64,000 nt of DNA from Mucilaginibacter glaciei (GTDB lineage: Bacteria; Bacteroidota; Bacteroidia; Sphingobacteriales; Sphingobacteriaceae). This document shows, piece by piece, positions 46,171 through 50,641 of this stretch. The stretch's first letter is position 1; each line of letters begins with the position of its first letter. Below the pieces are notes generated by a model that saw nothing but the letters and a program-made list of their open reading frames with translations, made no database searches and had not been told where the DNA came from. The DNA lies in the NCBI RefSeq assembly GCF_014773245.1, contig NZ_JACWMX010000004.1, positions 62,001 through 126,000 on the forward strand. Direction: 5' to 3'. The position numbers were made by a program, and so were the translations under genes.

Positions 46171-46777
46171 TGATCATCGCCTTTTTAGAAGCGGGCTGGT
46201 ATCATTGATCAACAGTTTTAGCGGTTACACAATTATGCTGGAGGCCGCCAACGGCGAAGAACTTTCCCGCAAGCTATCGCCAAAATTTAAACCCGATATT
46301 ATCTTGCTTGATCTTAACATGCCGGTGATGGCTGGCACCCAAACTGCACAGTGGCTGCGGGCAAACTACCCGGATATCTGTATCATCATCCTATCTATGT
46401 TTGAGGATGCCGATAAGGTGTTAAATATGGTGAAGTTAGGCGTTAAAGGCTATTTGTTAAAAGATGCCGAACCCCATGAATTTGAACAAGCCCTTAAAAA
46501 AGTAGCACAGGGCGAATTATATTATCCCGAATTTGTAACCCGACACTTAGTGAATAACTTTAACCGCGGCGTTGACCCAATTAAACTCAACAACCGCGAG
46601 CTGGAGTTTTTAAAATTGGCCGGCACCGAACTCACCTATAAAGAAATTGCCGACCAAATGTGCATCAGCGCCCGCACCGTTGATGGCTACCGCGACCAGC
46701 TTTTTGAAAAATTACAGATAAAAAGCCGGGTGGGCCTGGTTTTATATGCCATAAAAAACAACTTGGTACAATTGTAA
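46136..46777 (+). CDS. LuxR-family response regulator
   Basis: Counting from the ATG at 46136 the protein has 213 residues. The receiver domain has the acidic pocket ALVDDHRLFR and the phospho-Asp in IILLDLNMPVM, and the output domain is a LuxR helix-turn-helix (NNRELEFLKLAGTEL, KEIADQMCISARTVDGYRDQ). It is the partner of the kinase before it. Its targets are unknown. Confidence 0.93.
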   Translation: MPTQNIQIALVDDHRLFRSGLVSLINSFSGYTIMLEAANGEELSRKLSPKFKPDIILLDLNMPVMAGTQTAQWLRANYPDICIIILSMFEDADKVLNMVKLGVKGYLLKDAEPHEFEQALKKVAQGELYYPEFVTRHLVNNFNRGVDPIKLNNRELEFLKLAGTELTYKEIADQMCISARTVDGYRDQLFEKLQIKSRVGLVLYAIKNNLVQL

Positions 46778-46800
46778 TTTGCTAATTATTTTAGCAAATT
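46776..46800. terminator. A/T-rich hairpin after the response regulator
   Basis: AATTTGCTAA (46776-46785) pairs perfectly with TTAGCAAATT (46791-46800) around 5 bases. The left arm overlaps the stop codon of the regulator, and the right arm is 7 bases before the next gene. It could be a weak terminator or an operator of the following gene. Confidence 0.5.
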
Positions 46801-46806
46801 TGCTCT

Positions 46807-47877
46807 ATGTCGCATGAGCAGAATGAGGAGTTTTTTAAAGGGCGGGGGGCCCAGGTTAACACCCACAACAAGTTTTTAAAAAATAAATATGTGCAGGAGC
46901 ATATAGAGGGATTGGATGAGCAGTTGCTTGAAAACACGCATACCCAGCTTTTTGAAGAGAACCCCAAAAAGATCGTAAGTGAATCTAACAGCCCGGACCT
47001 GAGCCATTTCCATTCCATTAACCCCTACCAGGGTTGCGAGCACGGCTGTATTTATTGCTACGCCCGTAACAGCCACGAATATTATGGCTTTAGCGCCGGC
47101 CTTGATTTTGAGCGTAAGATCATCGTTAAACGCAACGCACCCGAACTGCTGGAAAAGTATTTTAATAAACGCGGTTATCAGCCCATCCCTATCGTACTAT
47201 CCGGCAATACCGATTGTTACCAGCCGATAGAACGCAAACTAAAAATTACCCGCGGGCTGTTGCAGGTTTTTTTGAAATACAAACACCCGGTGAGCATCAT
47301 CACTAAAAACAATGTGATACTGCGCGATATGGATATTTTGAGCGAGCTGGCAGCCATGAAACTCGCGCACGTAAACATGTCTGTAACTACACTCAGCGAG
47401 TCGCTACGGCAAAAGCTGGAACCACGAACGGTAACCGGCATGAGCCGCCTGCGGGTAATAGAAAAACTGTCAGACAAAGGCATCCCCTGCCGGGTGATGG
47501 TAGCACCCATTATACCGGGCTTAAACAGTAACGAGATCCCGGATATTATTAAAGCCGCTGCCGACCGCGGGGCGCTATCTGCCGGGTTTACTATTGTTCG
47601 GCTGAACGGCAGCATCGCGGAGATCTTTACCGACTGGATCTACAAAGCATTCCCAGATCGTGCCGAGAAGGTACTTAACATGATAAAGGCCTGTCATGAC
47701 GGGAAGCTAAACGACAGCGATTTTGGCCGCCGGATGAGCGGCGAGGGGCACGTAGCCAGCTCCATTCATCAATTATACCGTATGGCCTGCGTCCGCTTCC
47801 TCTCCGGCCGCGAAATGCCGGGGTATGACCTGAGTTTGTTTACGCCAAGGGGCGGGAAGCAGATGGATTTGTTTTGA
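46807..47877 (+). CDS. PA0069-family radical SAM protein
   Basis: The 356-residue protein has a radical SAM iron-sulfur motif CEHGCIYCYARNSHEYYGF (Cys at about 78, 82 and 85). SGNTDCYQPIERKLKITRGL, SIITKNNVILRDMDIL and APIIPGLNSNEIPDI follow, and are typical of the PA0069 family related to SplB. Such proteins use S-adenosylmethionine to form a 5'-deoxyadenosyl radical. The substrate is not established. It starts 29 bases after the response regulator, behind a hairpin, and is probably transcribed separately. Confidence 0.9.
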   Translation: MSHEQNEEFFKGRGAQVNTHNKFLKNKYVQEHIEGLDEQLLENTHTQLFEENPKKIVSESNSPDLSHFHSINPYQGCEHGCIYCYARNSHEYYGFSAGLDFERKIIVKRNAPELLEKYFNKRGYQPIPIVLSGNTDCYQPIERKLKITRGLLQVFLKYKHPVSIITKNNVILRDMDILSELAAMKLAHVNMSVTTLSESLRQKLEPRTVTGMSRLRVIEKLSDKGIPCRVMVAPIIPGLNSNEIPDIIKAAADRGALSAGFTIVRLNGSIAEIFTDWIYKAFPDRAEKVLNMIKACHDGKLNDSDFGRRMSGEGHVASSIHQLYRMACVRFLSGREMPGYDLSLFTPRGGKQMDLF

Positions 47878-47920
47878 CCGTTGATTTTGGTGGAACTCTG
47901 CGCACGTTACCCATCACGCA

Positions 47921-47949
47921 CGTCTTTGCGAGGTACGAAGCAATCCCCG
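47921..47949 (+). repeat. Left inverted repeat of the GIY-YIG unit
   Basis: A 29-bp sequence starting CGTCTTTGCGAGGTACGAAG and ending CAATCCCCG. Its exact reverse complement lies at 48324-48352. The unit between, 47921-48352, is 432 bases long. The neighbouring sequence outside (47908-47920) also pairs with 48353-48365 at 10 of 13 positions. Confidence 0.9.
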
Positions 47950-47973
47950 ATACGCTTATCGCCGACATGAAGT

Positions 47974-48282
47974 CTATTGTTCCATTAATTCCTCATACAA
48001 ATCATTCCAATTTGGATTCATTGCGTTGATCAATTTAATTTTACTTGCCCTATTTCCGCCTTTAATTATTTTCTCAACGGCAATCGCTTCTTCGATATGT
48101 GAATAAGCCTCATAGTAAACAAGCTTATTACAGTTGTATTTGGCAGAAAAGCTGTTTGGATGAATTTTGTTTTTGTGCTGCCAAATCCTGGTGATGAGAT
48201 CTGACGTAACGCCGATATATAGTACCAGGTGCTGCTGATTGGTCATTATGTAAACACAGCCACCTCTTTGAAATACCATCAT
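47974..48282 (-). CDS. GIY-YIG-domain nuclease family protein
   Basis: The 102-residue protein has the GIY-YIG core: VYIMTN, VLYIGVTSDLITRIWQHKNK with the catalytic Arg, and YEAYSHIEEAIAVEKIIKGG with the Glu. It matches the short single-domain GIY-YIG proteins abundant in Bacteroidota genomes. It fills nearly all of a 432-bp unit closed by 29-bp perfect inverted repeats, with 24 bases from the left repeat and 41 from the right. The arrangement suggests that the gene and repeats form a mobile or repeat-associated unit. Two ATGs are adjacent at the start (48282 and 48279). Confidence 0.88.
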   Translation of the reverse strand: MMVFQRGGCVYIMTNQQHLVLYIGVTSDLITRIWQHKNKIHPNSFSAKYNCNKLVYYEAYSHIEEAIAVEKIIKGGNRASKIKLINAMNPNWNDLYEELMEQ

Positions 48283-48323
48283 GCAAATTAGAAAAGATCT
48301 TTAATAATTCGTTACCGTCCTGG

Positions 48324-48352
48324 CGGGGATTGCTTCGTACCTCGCAAAGACG
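48324..48352 (-). repeat. Right inverted repeat of the GIY-YIG unit
   Basis: This is the perfect reverse complement of the left repeat at 47921-47949 (29 of 29 bases). It shares TTGCGAG and a GCAATC-type half with the palindromic element at 32086-32173. Confidence 0.9.
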
Positions 48353-48389
48353 TGTGTAGTGGTTTGATCTTTAAGTTCTATTTTCCTGA

Positions 48390-48620
48390 TTACATCCGCA
48401 ACCGTAACGATACCGACCTGCCCAGGGCCTGCACAAAATTAGGGTCGAGTGTTTGGTCGCCGTCTTTTTGGATCCAGATGGTTTTCTCTTTTATCAGTTG
48501 TAGTTTTTCACCGTTGAGCAGCAACTCCAGTTCAACTGTATTTTGGTTGATCAGGTTGCTATTTATAATCTGGTAAACGTAATCCCGGTCGTTAAATGTT
48601 ATTCGTAGTGGTAGTCCCAT
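48390..48620 (-). CDS. Small protein of unknown function
   Basis: The 76-residue protein reads as MGLPLRITFNDRDYVYQIIN, then SNLINQNTVELELLLNGEKL and a charged middle with TIWIQKDGDQTLDP. It has mixed alpha/beta character with no membrane segment and no domain I recognise. Codon use and composition look like those of the neighbours. The ATG, the absence of overlap with other genes and the clean ending beside the GIY-YIG unit support a real gene, with moderate certainty. Confidence 0.6.
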   Translation of the reverse strand: MGLPLRITFNDRDYVYQIINSNLINQNTVELELLLNGEKLQLIKEKTIWIQKDGDQTLDPNFVQALGRSVSLRLRM

Positions 48621-48746
48621 GTCGCTTATCTCTTCGGTTGTAAAGATAAACGTTAACGCGGGTTGTAGCGTTTTATTTGAAAAAATATAAATTGCTCATA
48701 GGATTACTAAGTCCTTACAACAATATCAAGATCGTTTTAAAAACAA

Positions 48747-48772
48747 GAAAGGCCCCGTAAACGGAGCCTTTC
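48747..48772 (-). terminator. Terminator after the zinc-ribbon protein gene
   Basis: GAAAGGC-C-CCGT (48747-48758) and ACGG-A-GCCTTTC (48761-48772) pair with one mismatch. On the minus strand this is downstream of the 48801 stop codon. Confidence 0.6.
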
Positions 48773-48800
48773 GATATTAAATTTATACGTGGTTTCTTGA

Positions 48801-49544
48801 TTAAACGTTCTCTTCTTCCAAAGCCATTTGCTCATCAACCAAAATACGGCCGCAGTGTTCGCAAACGATAATTTTTTTGCGTTGACGGATATCCGACTGC
48901 CGTTGTGGCGGGATTTGATTAAAGCAACCTGAACATGAATCGCGCTGAATGGTAACTACTGCTAAACCATTTTTAGCGTTTTTACGCAAACGGTTGTAAG
49001 CAATTAACAAACGCTCGTCAATACCACCGGTCGACGCTTCGGCCTGGGTAGTTAACTCGTTCTCTTCTTTTTCAGTTTCGGCAGTAATAGTGCCTAACTC
49101 ATCTTTTTTAGCGTCAAGGTCGCTGCGGCGGGCTTCCAGATCGGCAAGGGCTTTTTCGTAAACGGTGGTCTTTGATGCAATCTCAAAACCAAATTCCCTA
49201 ATCTTCTTTTCGCTCACTTGTATATCTAAGCCCTGGATCTCGATTTCTTTTGAAATTGCATCATACTCACGGTTATTTTTAACCTCGTTAAGTTGCGTTT
49301 CGTATTTTTTAGTGTTCGCTTGTGAATCTTTGATCAGATTTTTGCGGGTAACAATTTCGTCTTCCAGATCATCAAGCTCATTCTTTATTTTCTGTATACG
49401 GGTTTCTAAGCCGGCAACGTCATCTTCCAGGTCGGCAACTTCCATAGGCAGTTCACCTCTTACCTGGCGTATTTTATCAATTTTTGTGTGGATAAGTTGC
49501 AGGTCGTATAAAGCTTTAAGCTTTTGTTCTATGGTTTGTTCCAT
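48801..49544 (-). CDS. Coiled-coil protein with a C4-type zinc ribbon
   Basis: The 247-residue protein is mostly a long coiled coil (about 20-180, e.g. DLEDDVAGLETRIQKIKNEL) followed by a C4 zinc ribbon with CSGCFNQIPPQ and CEHCGRILVDE. This is the layout of the family long annotated as 'C4-type zinc ribbon domain' proteins, of unclear role in nucleic-acid or envelope functions. Its start codon shares one base with the stop codon of the upstream Nif3-like gene, so the two are translated as one unit. Confidence 0.9.
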   Translation of the reverse strand: MEQTIEQKLKALYDLQLIHTKIDKIRQVRGELPMEVADLEDDVAGLETRIQKIKNELDDLEDEIVTRKNLIKDSQANTKKYETQLNEVKNNREYDAISKEIEIQGLDIQVSEKKIREFGFEIASKTTVYEKALADLEARRSDLDAKKDELGTITAETEKEENELTTQAEASTGGIDERLLIAYNRLRKNAKNGLAVVTIQRDSCSGCFNQIPPQRQSDIRQRKKIIVCEHCGRILVDEQMALEEENV

Positions 49545-50641
49545 TAAATAAAATATTTGACGGGGTTTGTATTCACTTTTGTTAAACGGATGGCAAAGTT
49601 AACAAATTTATTTTGAATTAATTCATACAATAATTGCTGCGTAAATTGCTCACTTTCAAAATGTCCGATGTCAGCAATAAGTATCTTTCCCTCTGCGTCA
49701 AAAAACTCATGGTATTTGTAATCGGCTGTAATAAAAACGTCGGCACCTGCTGCAATAGCGTGTTTCAATAAAAACCCTCCAGAGCCGCCACATACCGCCA
49801 CTTTCCTGATCTGCTTCCCGGTAAAAGCCGTATGCCTGATCACTTCGGCCTGCATATTTTGCTTTACCTCACGCAAAAACTCTTCTTCGCTCATGGGCAC
49901 GTCCAGTTCGCCTATCATTCCACTGCCTACCTGCTGGTGCTGGTTGGTTAGGTTATATAGATCATAGGCTACCTCTTCATAGGGGTGCGCTAATACCAGC
50001 GCCATCAAAATCTTGCTCTCCAAATTGGCCGGATAAATGGTCTCAATGCGAACCTCTTCTCCCCAATGTCGGATGCCCGGCTCGCCTATATAAGGGTCGG
50101 TGCCCTCTCCCGCTTTAAAAGTGCCGGCACCTTCTGCGTTAAAACTCACCTCGCTGTAATTGCCAATGTTGCCCGCCCCGGCATGGAACAGGGCGTTGCG
50201 CACCTGGTCGGCCTGCGCGGTGGGCACATAGGTAACCAGTTTTTTCAGGATGCCGTGCTTGGGTGCCAGCGTATGGTAATTAACCAGGCCCAATGTTTCG
50301 CAAATGCGGGCGTTAACCCCCACCATTACATTATCCAGGTTGGTGTGGATGGCATAAAGCGCAATGTTGTTGCGGATGGCCTTCTCCACTACGCGCTCTA
50401 CATAGGTTTTACCGTTAAATTTTTTTAGCCCCTTAAAAACAATAGGGTGGTGCGAAACGATGACCTCACATCCGGTGGTAATAGCCTCATCAACCACGGC
50501 CTCTGTACAATCTAAAGAGATCAGGGCTTGGGTAACTTCCTGGTCGGGCCGGCCGACGATAAGGCCACTATTATCATAATCTTCCTGGTAGGCCAGCGGG
50601 GCCAGGCTTTCCAGGTAAGCGGTTAGCTGTGCTAATTTCAT
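49544..50641 (-). CDS. Nif3-like dinuclear metal-centre hexameric protein
   Basis: The 365-residue protein has the Nif3 metal ligands in VSHHPIVFKGLKKF and AIHTNLDNV (N-terminal), and DIGHFESEQF near the C-terminus. A middle insert (about 130-235, KLVTYVPTAQADQVRNALF) is the PII-like domain found in the longer versions. These are GTP-cyclohydrolase-like toroidal proteins of unknown exact activity. It precedes the zinc-ribbon gene on the same strand, a conserved pairing in Bacteroidota. Confidence 0.92.
   Translation of the reverse strand: MKLAQLTAYLESLAPLAYQEDYDNSGLIVGRPDQEVTQALISLDCTEAVVDEAITTGCEVIVSHHPIVFKGLKKFNGKTYVERVVEKAIRNNIALYAIHTNLDNVMVGVNARICETLGLVNYHTLAPKHGILKKLVTYVPTAQADQVRNALFHAGAGNIGNYSEVSFNAEGAGTFKAGEGTDPYIGEPGIRHWGEEVRIETIYPANLESKILMALVLAHPYEEVAYDLYNLTNQHQQVGSGMIGELDVPMSEEEFLREVKQNMQAEVIRHTAFTGKQIRKVAVCGGSGGFLLKHAIAAGADVFITADYKYHEFFDAEGKILIADIGHFESEQFTQQLLYELIQNKFVNFAIRLTKVNTNPVKYFI

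Follow-up and report, generated by a model that had tools for sequence, protein, structure and literature searches.

The window analysed here, a stretch of 64,000 nucleotides from Mucilaginibacter glaciei, carries a compact unit in which a small GIY-YIG nuclease gene lies between the two arms of an inverted repeat. The unit and its neighbours are arranged as follows:

46807..47877, + strand: left neighbour gene, radical-SAM-like by eye; present in 59 of 61 genus genomes including our own, and the marker for the orthologous site
47911..48362, no strand: whole unit including the imperfect outer parts of the arms (39-bp arms, 92%); the relative G004 has nothing corresponding between the same two genes
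47919..47949, + strand: left repeat arm, a CGTC-tagged half-repeat, perfect part; exact 31-bp inverted match to 48324-48354; dispersed in the genome
47974..48282, - strand: gene of the GIY-YIG nuclease (102 residues), separated from the arms by 41 bp at its start and 24 bp at its stop
48324..48354, - strand: perfect portion of the right arm; exact inverted counterpart of the left arm over 31 bp
48390..48620, - strand: right neighbour, a small 76-residue open reading frame that also adjoins the left neighbour in the relatives G004 and G067

The segments 47921-47949 and 48324-48352 are exact reverse complements (29 of 29 bases), as the sequence-only reading of this DNA had described, and two more outward bases pair, giving a perfect inverted repeat of 31 bp (47919-47949 and 48324-48354). 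The partial complementarity which that reading had seen beyond the repeats is an imperfect extension of the arms: with mismatches allowed, the inverted repeat reaches 39 bp (92%; 47911-47949 and 48324-48362). The 31-bp repeat exceeds every other perfect inverted repeat within 1 kb in the window (20 single-base shuffles of the window gave maxima of 12-16 bp), and both arms open with CGTC, the end tag of CGTC-tagged REPs. Besides the GIY-YIG gene, the list of open reading frames holds no frame of 60 codons or more in the interior of the unit. A search of positions 46500-50000 against Rfam returned no match up to E 0.1, group I introns included, and we rejected an intron-borne GIY-YIG homing gene because no structured RNA was found there.

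The gene itself is intact and, as had been read from the sequence, encodes 102 residues, and its product matches the Pfam GIY-YIG domain (PF01541, E = 3.7e-13, residues 8-81), its sole Pfam match; an NCBIfam profile search, taken to E 0.01, returned no family. UPF0213 proteins (1zg2, 1ywl) have fold and domain in common with the window nuclease, to which they are only distantly similar: 1zg2, the best solved-structure match of an AlphaFold2 model that used an alignment of 21 sequences (mean pLDDT 92.9), shows 24% identity in the structural match. Residues invariant in that alignment include Y11, Y22, R32, H36, E70 and N89, which we take to be the GIY-YIG catalytic set. Mucilaginibacter and Pedobacter proteins are among the closest named relatives.

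The arm is dispersed through the 4.6-Mb genome. With up to 3 mismatches its 18-base core has 55 matches (24 + 31), while the reversed control pattern has 2 in the same search; within the window, the only matches are the unit's two arms (0.03 expected). In the 44 loci examined, 14 distinct inverted arm pairs are readable, the remaining matches being single or in arrays. Twelve of the pairs are gene-less dimers of ~90 bp overall, with an arm spacing of 51-67 bases, and the other two enclose GIY-YIG sequence: the window unit (spacing 400) and a second unit at C17:151924-152298 (spacing 357), in which the GIY-YIG gene is broken. Copies with the gene or a remnant of it and copies without one, which the sequence-only reading had proposed to look for, thus both exist. 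Arms are slightly more alike within pairs (0.916, a value reached in 14 of 2000 permutations) than between pairs (0.891). As single-stranded DNA, a gene-less dimer forms a single extended hairpin (-36.2 kcal/mol, z -12.3). A single arm of the window unit folds weakly (4-bp inner stem, z 0.23), and the genome's common arm has an inner stem of 5 bp.

Arms of the type found with clade-A nucleases (see below) also occur in arrays on contig C7 (L304, 4300-4829; spacing 128, 128 and 93 bases) and at the start of contig C18 (L305; spacing 128 and 93 bases). Both arrays mix these repeats with another GTCA-tagged repeat, of the CTGAGCTTGTCGAAG type, and both contigs end inside the array; on C7 it is adjoined by a 1075-residue open reading frame, restriction-modification-like by eye.

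We compared the unit's own site among relatives at 30 of the 60 matches of the left neighbour, covering ~1.5 kb on each side (less at two contig ends). The nuclease is visible at our own locus only among these 30. Two relatives keep the same right neighbour: in G004 the left and right neighbour genes lie a few bases apart with no unit between them, and in G067 they are separated by a 16-base palindrome that reads as the outermost ends of the arms fused. The second unit's site lies after a tRNA gene, and we examined the loci of 11 of 13 relatives. It is empty in five (G067, G021, G028, G062 and G009), holds a gene-less repeat dimer in G004 and G080 (the G080 contig begins there, leaving the tRNA side unseen), and is different or ambiguous in four (G006, G010, G066 and G081). 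No target-site duplication is evident at the clearest of the second unit's empty sites, where relatives are only ~70-83% alike. A further unit lies in G013. G031, whose flanks are 93% and 87% alike, lacks it and has half a dimer and other repeat hairpins at the site; G017 has one dimer there without the nuclease, and the matching stretch of G027 has no such repeat. The empty-site comparison suggested from the sequence thus finds relatives nuclease-free at the window site and at two other unit sites. The outcome that the sequence-only reading had named as refuting it, the unit at the same place in all strains with no other copies of the repeat, did not occur. The two flanks of the G013 unit (L045) lie ~9 kb apart in G031 and ~16 kb apart in G027 and are oppositely oriented, a pattern that an inversion with its breakpoint in the repeat cluster would leave.

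To place the unit in its class, we scored 135 of 137 GIY-YIG loci in 60 genomes, including our own, for inverted repeats spanning the gene. L034 was left out as a duplicate of L039, and L036 and L037 gave no profile match; the survey also left out the second pieces of split genes, G037:C5:13741 (whose sequence lies inside L144), G034:C1:114293 and five further matches of ~30% identity (G029:C122, G006:C141, G015:C64, G005:C228 and G008:C5). Housekeeping GIY-YIG genes, whose open frames span 118-181 codons and of which 28 genomes have one each, served as an internal control. A score of at least 20 was reached by 71 of the 93 full-length small-class nucleases and by 12 of 14 small-class fragments, versus none of the 28 housekeeping genes, whose highest score was 17; in the genus alone the counts are 66 of 78 versus 0 of 28. 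Twelve of the 93 full-length nucleases score below 16. The maximum in shuffled sequence was 14, and the 99th percentile of the cross-locus null is 26 because arms are shared between loci.

The arms have a general form: GTC, a 5-base stem that usually starts with AT, a loop, the complementary stem and C. Exact tagged hairpins lie within 450 bases of 64 of the 93 small-class loci, on both sides in 46, and 29 loci have none. Their total around the 93 loci is 215, versus 12 in shuffled flanks; among controls they occur at 4 of 28 housekeeping loci and at 3 of 30 loci of another gene (2 of the 30 being cut at contig ends). The pattern extends to named genomes, where we scanned the best 80 of at least 579 relatives: tagged hairpins are present at 70 of these 80 loci, on both sides in 60 (252 hairpins vs 20 in shuffled flanks), and 42 reach the stricter inverted-repeat score of at least 20 (cross-locus 95th percentile 22, shuffle maximum 19). 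The named-genome loci span Bacteroidota, Alpha-, Beta- and Gammaproteobacteria, Cyanobacteria, Clostridia, Elusimicrobia, Armatimonadetes and others. Homologs in two Sphingobium strains and one Shinella strain, from plasmid-collection records, are flanked by their own GTC-tagged palindromes.

The core of the arm varies with the nuclease clade. It reads ATTGC in clades A and A2, ATGCC or ATGCT in B, mostly ATNCT in C and mostly ATTTC in D, and a distant nuclease clade has a mixture such as ATGCT, ATACT and ATGGT with a different loop. A core was readable in 76 of the 81 full-length loci with a score of at least 16. On the nuclease tree, the core triplet of these 76 loci changes 19 times, versus 36.4 changes on average and never fewer than 29 when it is shuffled within genomes (500 trials); 17 genomes in this set have more than one core. 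Clades A, A2, C and D are all represented in the genome of the window.

The number of repeats follows the nuclease in part. In 37 genus genomes, copies of a clade's repeat are more numerous where that clade's nuclease is present: medians are 56 versus 21 for clade A (p = 0.011), 43 versus 9 for clade B (p = 0.0026) and 16 versus 4 for clade C (p = 0.0097), while for clade D the association is not significant in the same genomes (p = 0.16). Off the diagonal, 3 of 12 combinations of clade and repeat also gave p<0.05, all p values being uncorrected for kinship or for the number of tests. We assigned the clades manually, following the order of the tree, and added fragments by identity or, in clade D, by their arms; because fragments were placed in this way the copy-number test leans towards association. 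The genome G017, rated 100% complete, holds 315 clade-A repeats, and we found no nuclease of the small class in it; this orphan repeat population may reflect loss of the nuclease after the repeats had spread. A simple dependence of repeat number on the nuclease is borne out in part only, given clade D and G017.

Among the 70 repeat-flanked nuclease loci of the genus, only 18 of the 2415 pairs have a flank gene in common, versus all 378 of 378 pairs of housekeeping GIY-YIG loci. Nuclease copies number mostly one or two per clade in a genome. In the closest 25 of 208 nuclease pairs, pN/pS is 0.07-0.20, and judging by these ratios the small-class nucleases are under purifying selection. The closest same-genome pairs among these 25 have dS values of 0.65, 1.4 and 1.5; therefore no recent dispersed duplication is seen, and no dispersed near-identical copies appeared within any one genome, in draft assemblies that may collapse recent copies. 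A near-identical pair was seen once, as a tandem duplication of a small-class nuclease in G037, which belongs to another family (L144, G037:C5:12242-14314); there, nuclease and surroundings repeat with a 599-base period and 599 of 600 bases are alike. The sequence-only reading had proposed a minimal mobile or repeat-propagating unit. This is partly supported, by the dispersed arm, the gene-less copies, the nuclease-free sites and the mostly unrelated places in which the nucleases lie; multiplication of the 432-bp unit itself is not borne out. Since the gene-less repeat is the numerous part, a nuclease acting in trans fits these observations better than a self-copying minimal transposon.

Two chromosome-size Neisseria gonorrhoeae records in the plasmid collection contain a homolog of the nuclease (42% identical, over 90% of the query). 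In the one record examined, CGTCATTCCCGC...GCGGGAATC repeats lie on its flanks, and they number 226 in that record (up to 2 mismatches) versus 0 for the control pattern. We presume this homolog to be the Ssn protein, and treat the tie as a lead. Ssn, a site-specific GIY-YIG nuclease of Neisseria and others, reportedly cuts single-stranded DNA at a dRS3-type repeat and is said to have thousands of homologs; the Ssn nuclease family probably covers the biochemistry of the present case. What the two share is this homology to a Neisseria protein linked to dRS3-type repeats, the homolog itself lying among dRS3 repeats. The window unit differs in having another repeat, a gene nested within the dimer and nuclease-free sites in relatives, and its cleavage activity is only predicted here.

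The window repeat also resembles the CGTC-tagged REPs. These are described, in the passages of Di Nocera, De Gregorio and Rocco 2013 (PMC3733652) used here, as having a CGTC or TGTC end tag, a stem of 8-9 bp that starts with AT and a loop of 4-5 bases, and as forming dispersed inverted dimers, with members in Bacteroidetes and with CGTC-1 of Neisseria being dRS3. The same passages present CGTC repeats as widespread, with dRS3 in Neisseria and palindromic elements in Rickettsia and Wolbachia. Our repeat shares the tag and is likewise dispersed, mostly as inverted dimers (the 55 matches, and the 14 inverted pairs in 44 loci), but the arm of the window unit has only a weak inner stem of 4-5 bp, against the published 8-9 bp. 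By stem length, therefore, the window repeat is CGTC-like and not a strict CGTC-tagged REP; the clade-B arm, with an 8-bp stem and a 5-base loop, is one. CGTC repeats are stated in those passages (PMC3733652) to "apparently lack a dedicated transposase", whereas the repeats studied here regularly come with a GIY-YIG gene; its association and covariation with the repeats name the GIY-YIG class as a candidate partner enzyme for them. The arrangement is also that of RAYT/REP REPtrons and of the GTAG-tagged REPINs as outlined in the same source (PMC3733652) and in further abstracts, in which one or a few repeat-flanked enzyme genes stand beside many gene-less repeats or dimers in trans. However, the REPtron enzyme is a tyrosine transposase of the IS200/IS605 type and its repeats carry GTAG, while the window unit has a GIY-YIG nuclease and CGTC/GTCA tags. 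Among the titles and abstract openings listed in our literature search, which covered neither subscription literature nor preprints, no paper linked GIY-YIG proteins to REP, dRS3, MITE or Ssn; a Moraxella paper containing both search terms was set aside because its mentions are unrelated, as was, judging by its listing, a plant genome-editing review.

Our preferred reading, to which we give a probability of roughly 0.7, is that a small GIY-YIG nuclease gene has come to lie inside a dispersed palindromic repeat with GTCA/CGTC tags, between its inverted halves, and that this repeat is the one recognised by the nuclease. In favour of this reading are the 55 arm matches, the 12 gene-less pairs and the nuclease-free states at three sites, together with the class-wide flanking repeats, the core that follows the nuclease tree, the copy-number association in clades A, B and C, the purifying selection and the dRS3-flanked homolog of N. 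gonorrhoeae. The clade-matched flanking repeats in many bacteria suggest that the nucleases act on those repeats, and they may help their spread. We counted against the reading that cutting and movement are inferred only, the 12 of 93 scores below 16, the 29 of 93 loci without an exact tagged hairpin, the weak fold of the window arm, the clade-D result and the off-diagonal tests with p<0.05. The strongest counter-evidence is the G017 repeat population without a nuclease, followed by the missing fresh dispersed copies and the missing evident target duplication.

By analogy, the unit would work like a REPtron, as a GIY-YIG counterpart of RAYT/REP with an unrelated enzyme. The nuclease would recognise the variable core of its own repeat and cut the cognate repeat in trans, probably at replication forks or in incoming DNA, where the repeat would be exposed as a single strand or pushed out as a hairpin. 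New repeat copies could then arise through repair or template switching from one copy to another, and the same processes could carry the nuclease into existing dimers. In this scheme a dimer with the nuclease would act as the "autonomous" element and the ~90-bp hairpins as its non-autonomous counterparts, a division of roles like that of RAYT genes and REPs among GTAG repeats. A wider proposal is that the dedicated enzymes so long missing for CGTC/GTCA-tagged repeats across bacteria are GIY-YIG nucleases, and that nuclease plus dimer is a third minimal repeat-propagating system beside RAYT-REPIN and IS-MITE, with a readable clade/core code; we put this at slightly under even odds.

Compatible with the nested-nuclease reading, and possible though on the doubtful side, is a domesticated genome-dynamics nuclease of the Ssn kind, which would cut single-stranded DNA at the repeats and tune DNA uptake or recombination; the repeats would then be the enzyme's marks, spread mainly by other means, and the gene would sit in a repeat because repeats cluster there. 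Purifying selection, the mostly one or two copies per clade, the Neisseria homolog among dRS3 repeats and the reported Ssn biochemistry all agree with such a role. However, mostly unrelated sites and the absence of the gene from orthologous sites would be unusual for a domesticated core gene, and this account alone leaves the multiplication of the repeats unexplained.

A homing-type selfish gene, which would be a variant of the nested-nuclease reading, appears unlikely. Here the nuclease would cut nuclease-free dimers, which serve as homing sites, and repair would copy the gene in; its position between dimer halves and the gene-less dimers at orthologous sites in G004, G080 and G017 fit this picture. 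Yet both arms of the unit are intact and the gene does not interrupt the repeat, so that the host copy would stay cleavable, and in many genomes the nuclease copies are few although the repeats run to dozens or hundreds. Far less probable still is passive capture, in which the repeats are hot spots of insertion or rearrangement and the GIY-YIG gene arrived by chance, a possibility that the sequence-only reading had raised as a repeat-derived element that captured the nuclease. Several repeats can sit together, and the flanks of the G013 unit are rearranged in G031 and G027, but we rejected passive capture because the housekeeping GIY-YIG genes and another gene of the same genomes mostly lack such flanks. 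Within genomes the core follows the nuclease clade, and chance capture is unlikely because the pairing recurs across phyla with clade-specific repeats.

Whether the nested nuclease acts on its repeat can be tested with a protein of ~100 residues and 30-base oligonucleotides, and the clade-matched repeats provide a natural panel of nuclease specificities.

Relatives of the nuclease also occur in other settings. On plasmid p1 of Planktothrix agardhii (L309), a homolog with repeats of the GTCATTCTGAG type has a type IIL restriction enzyme gene on one side and a DISARM helicase gene on the other. Contigs of the viral collection carry 35 relatives (L340-L374), one of them 67% identical to the window nuclease.
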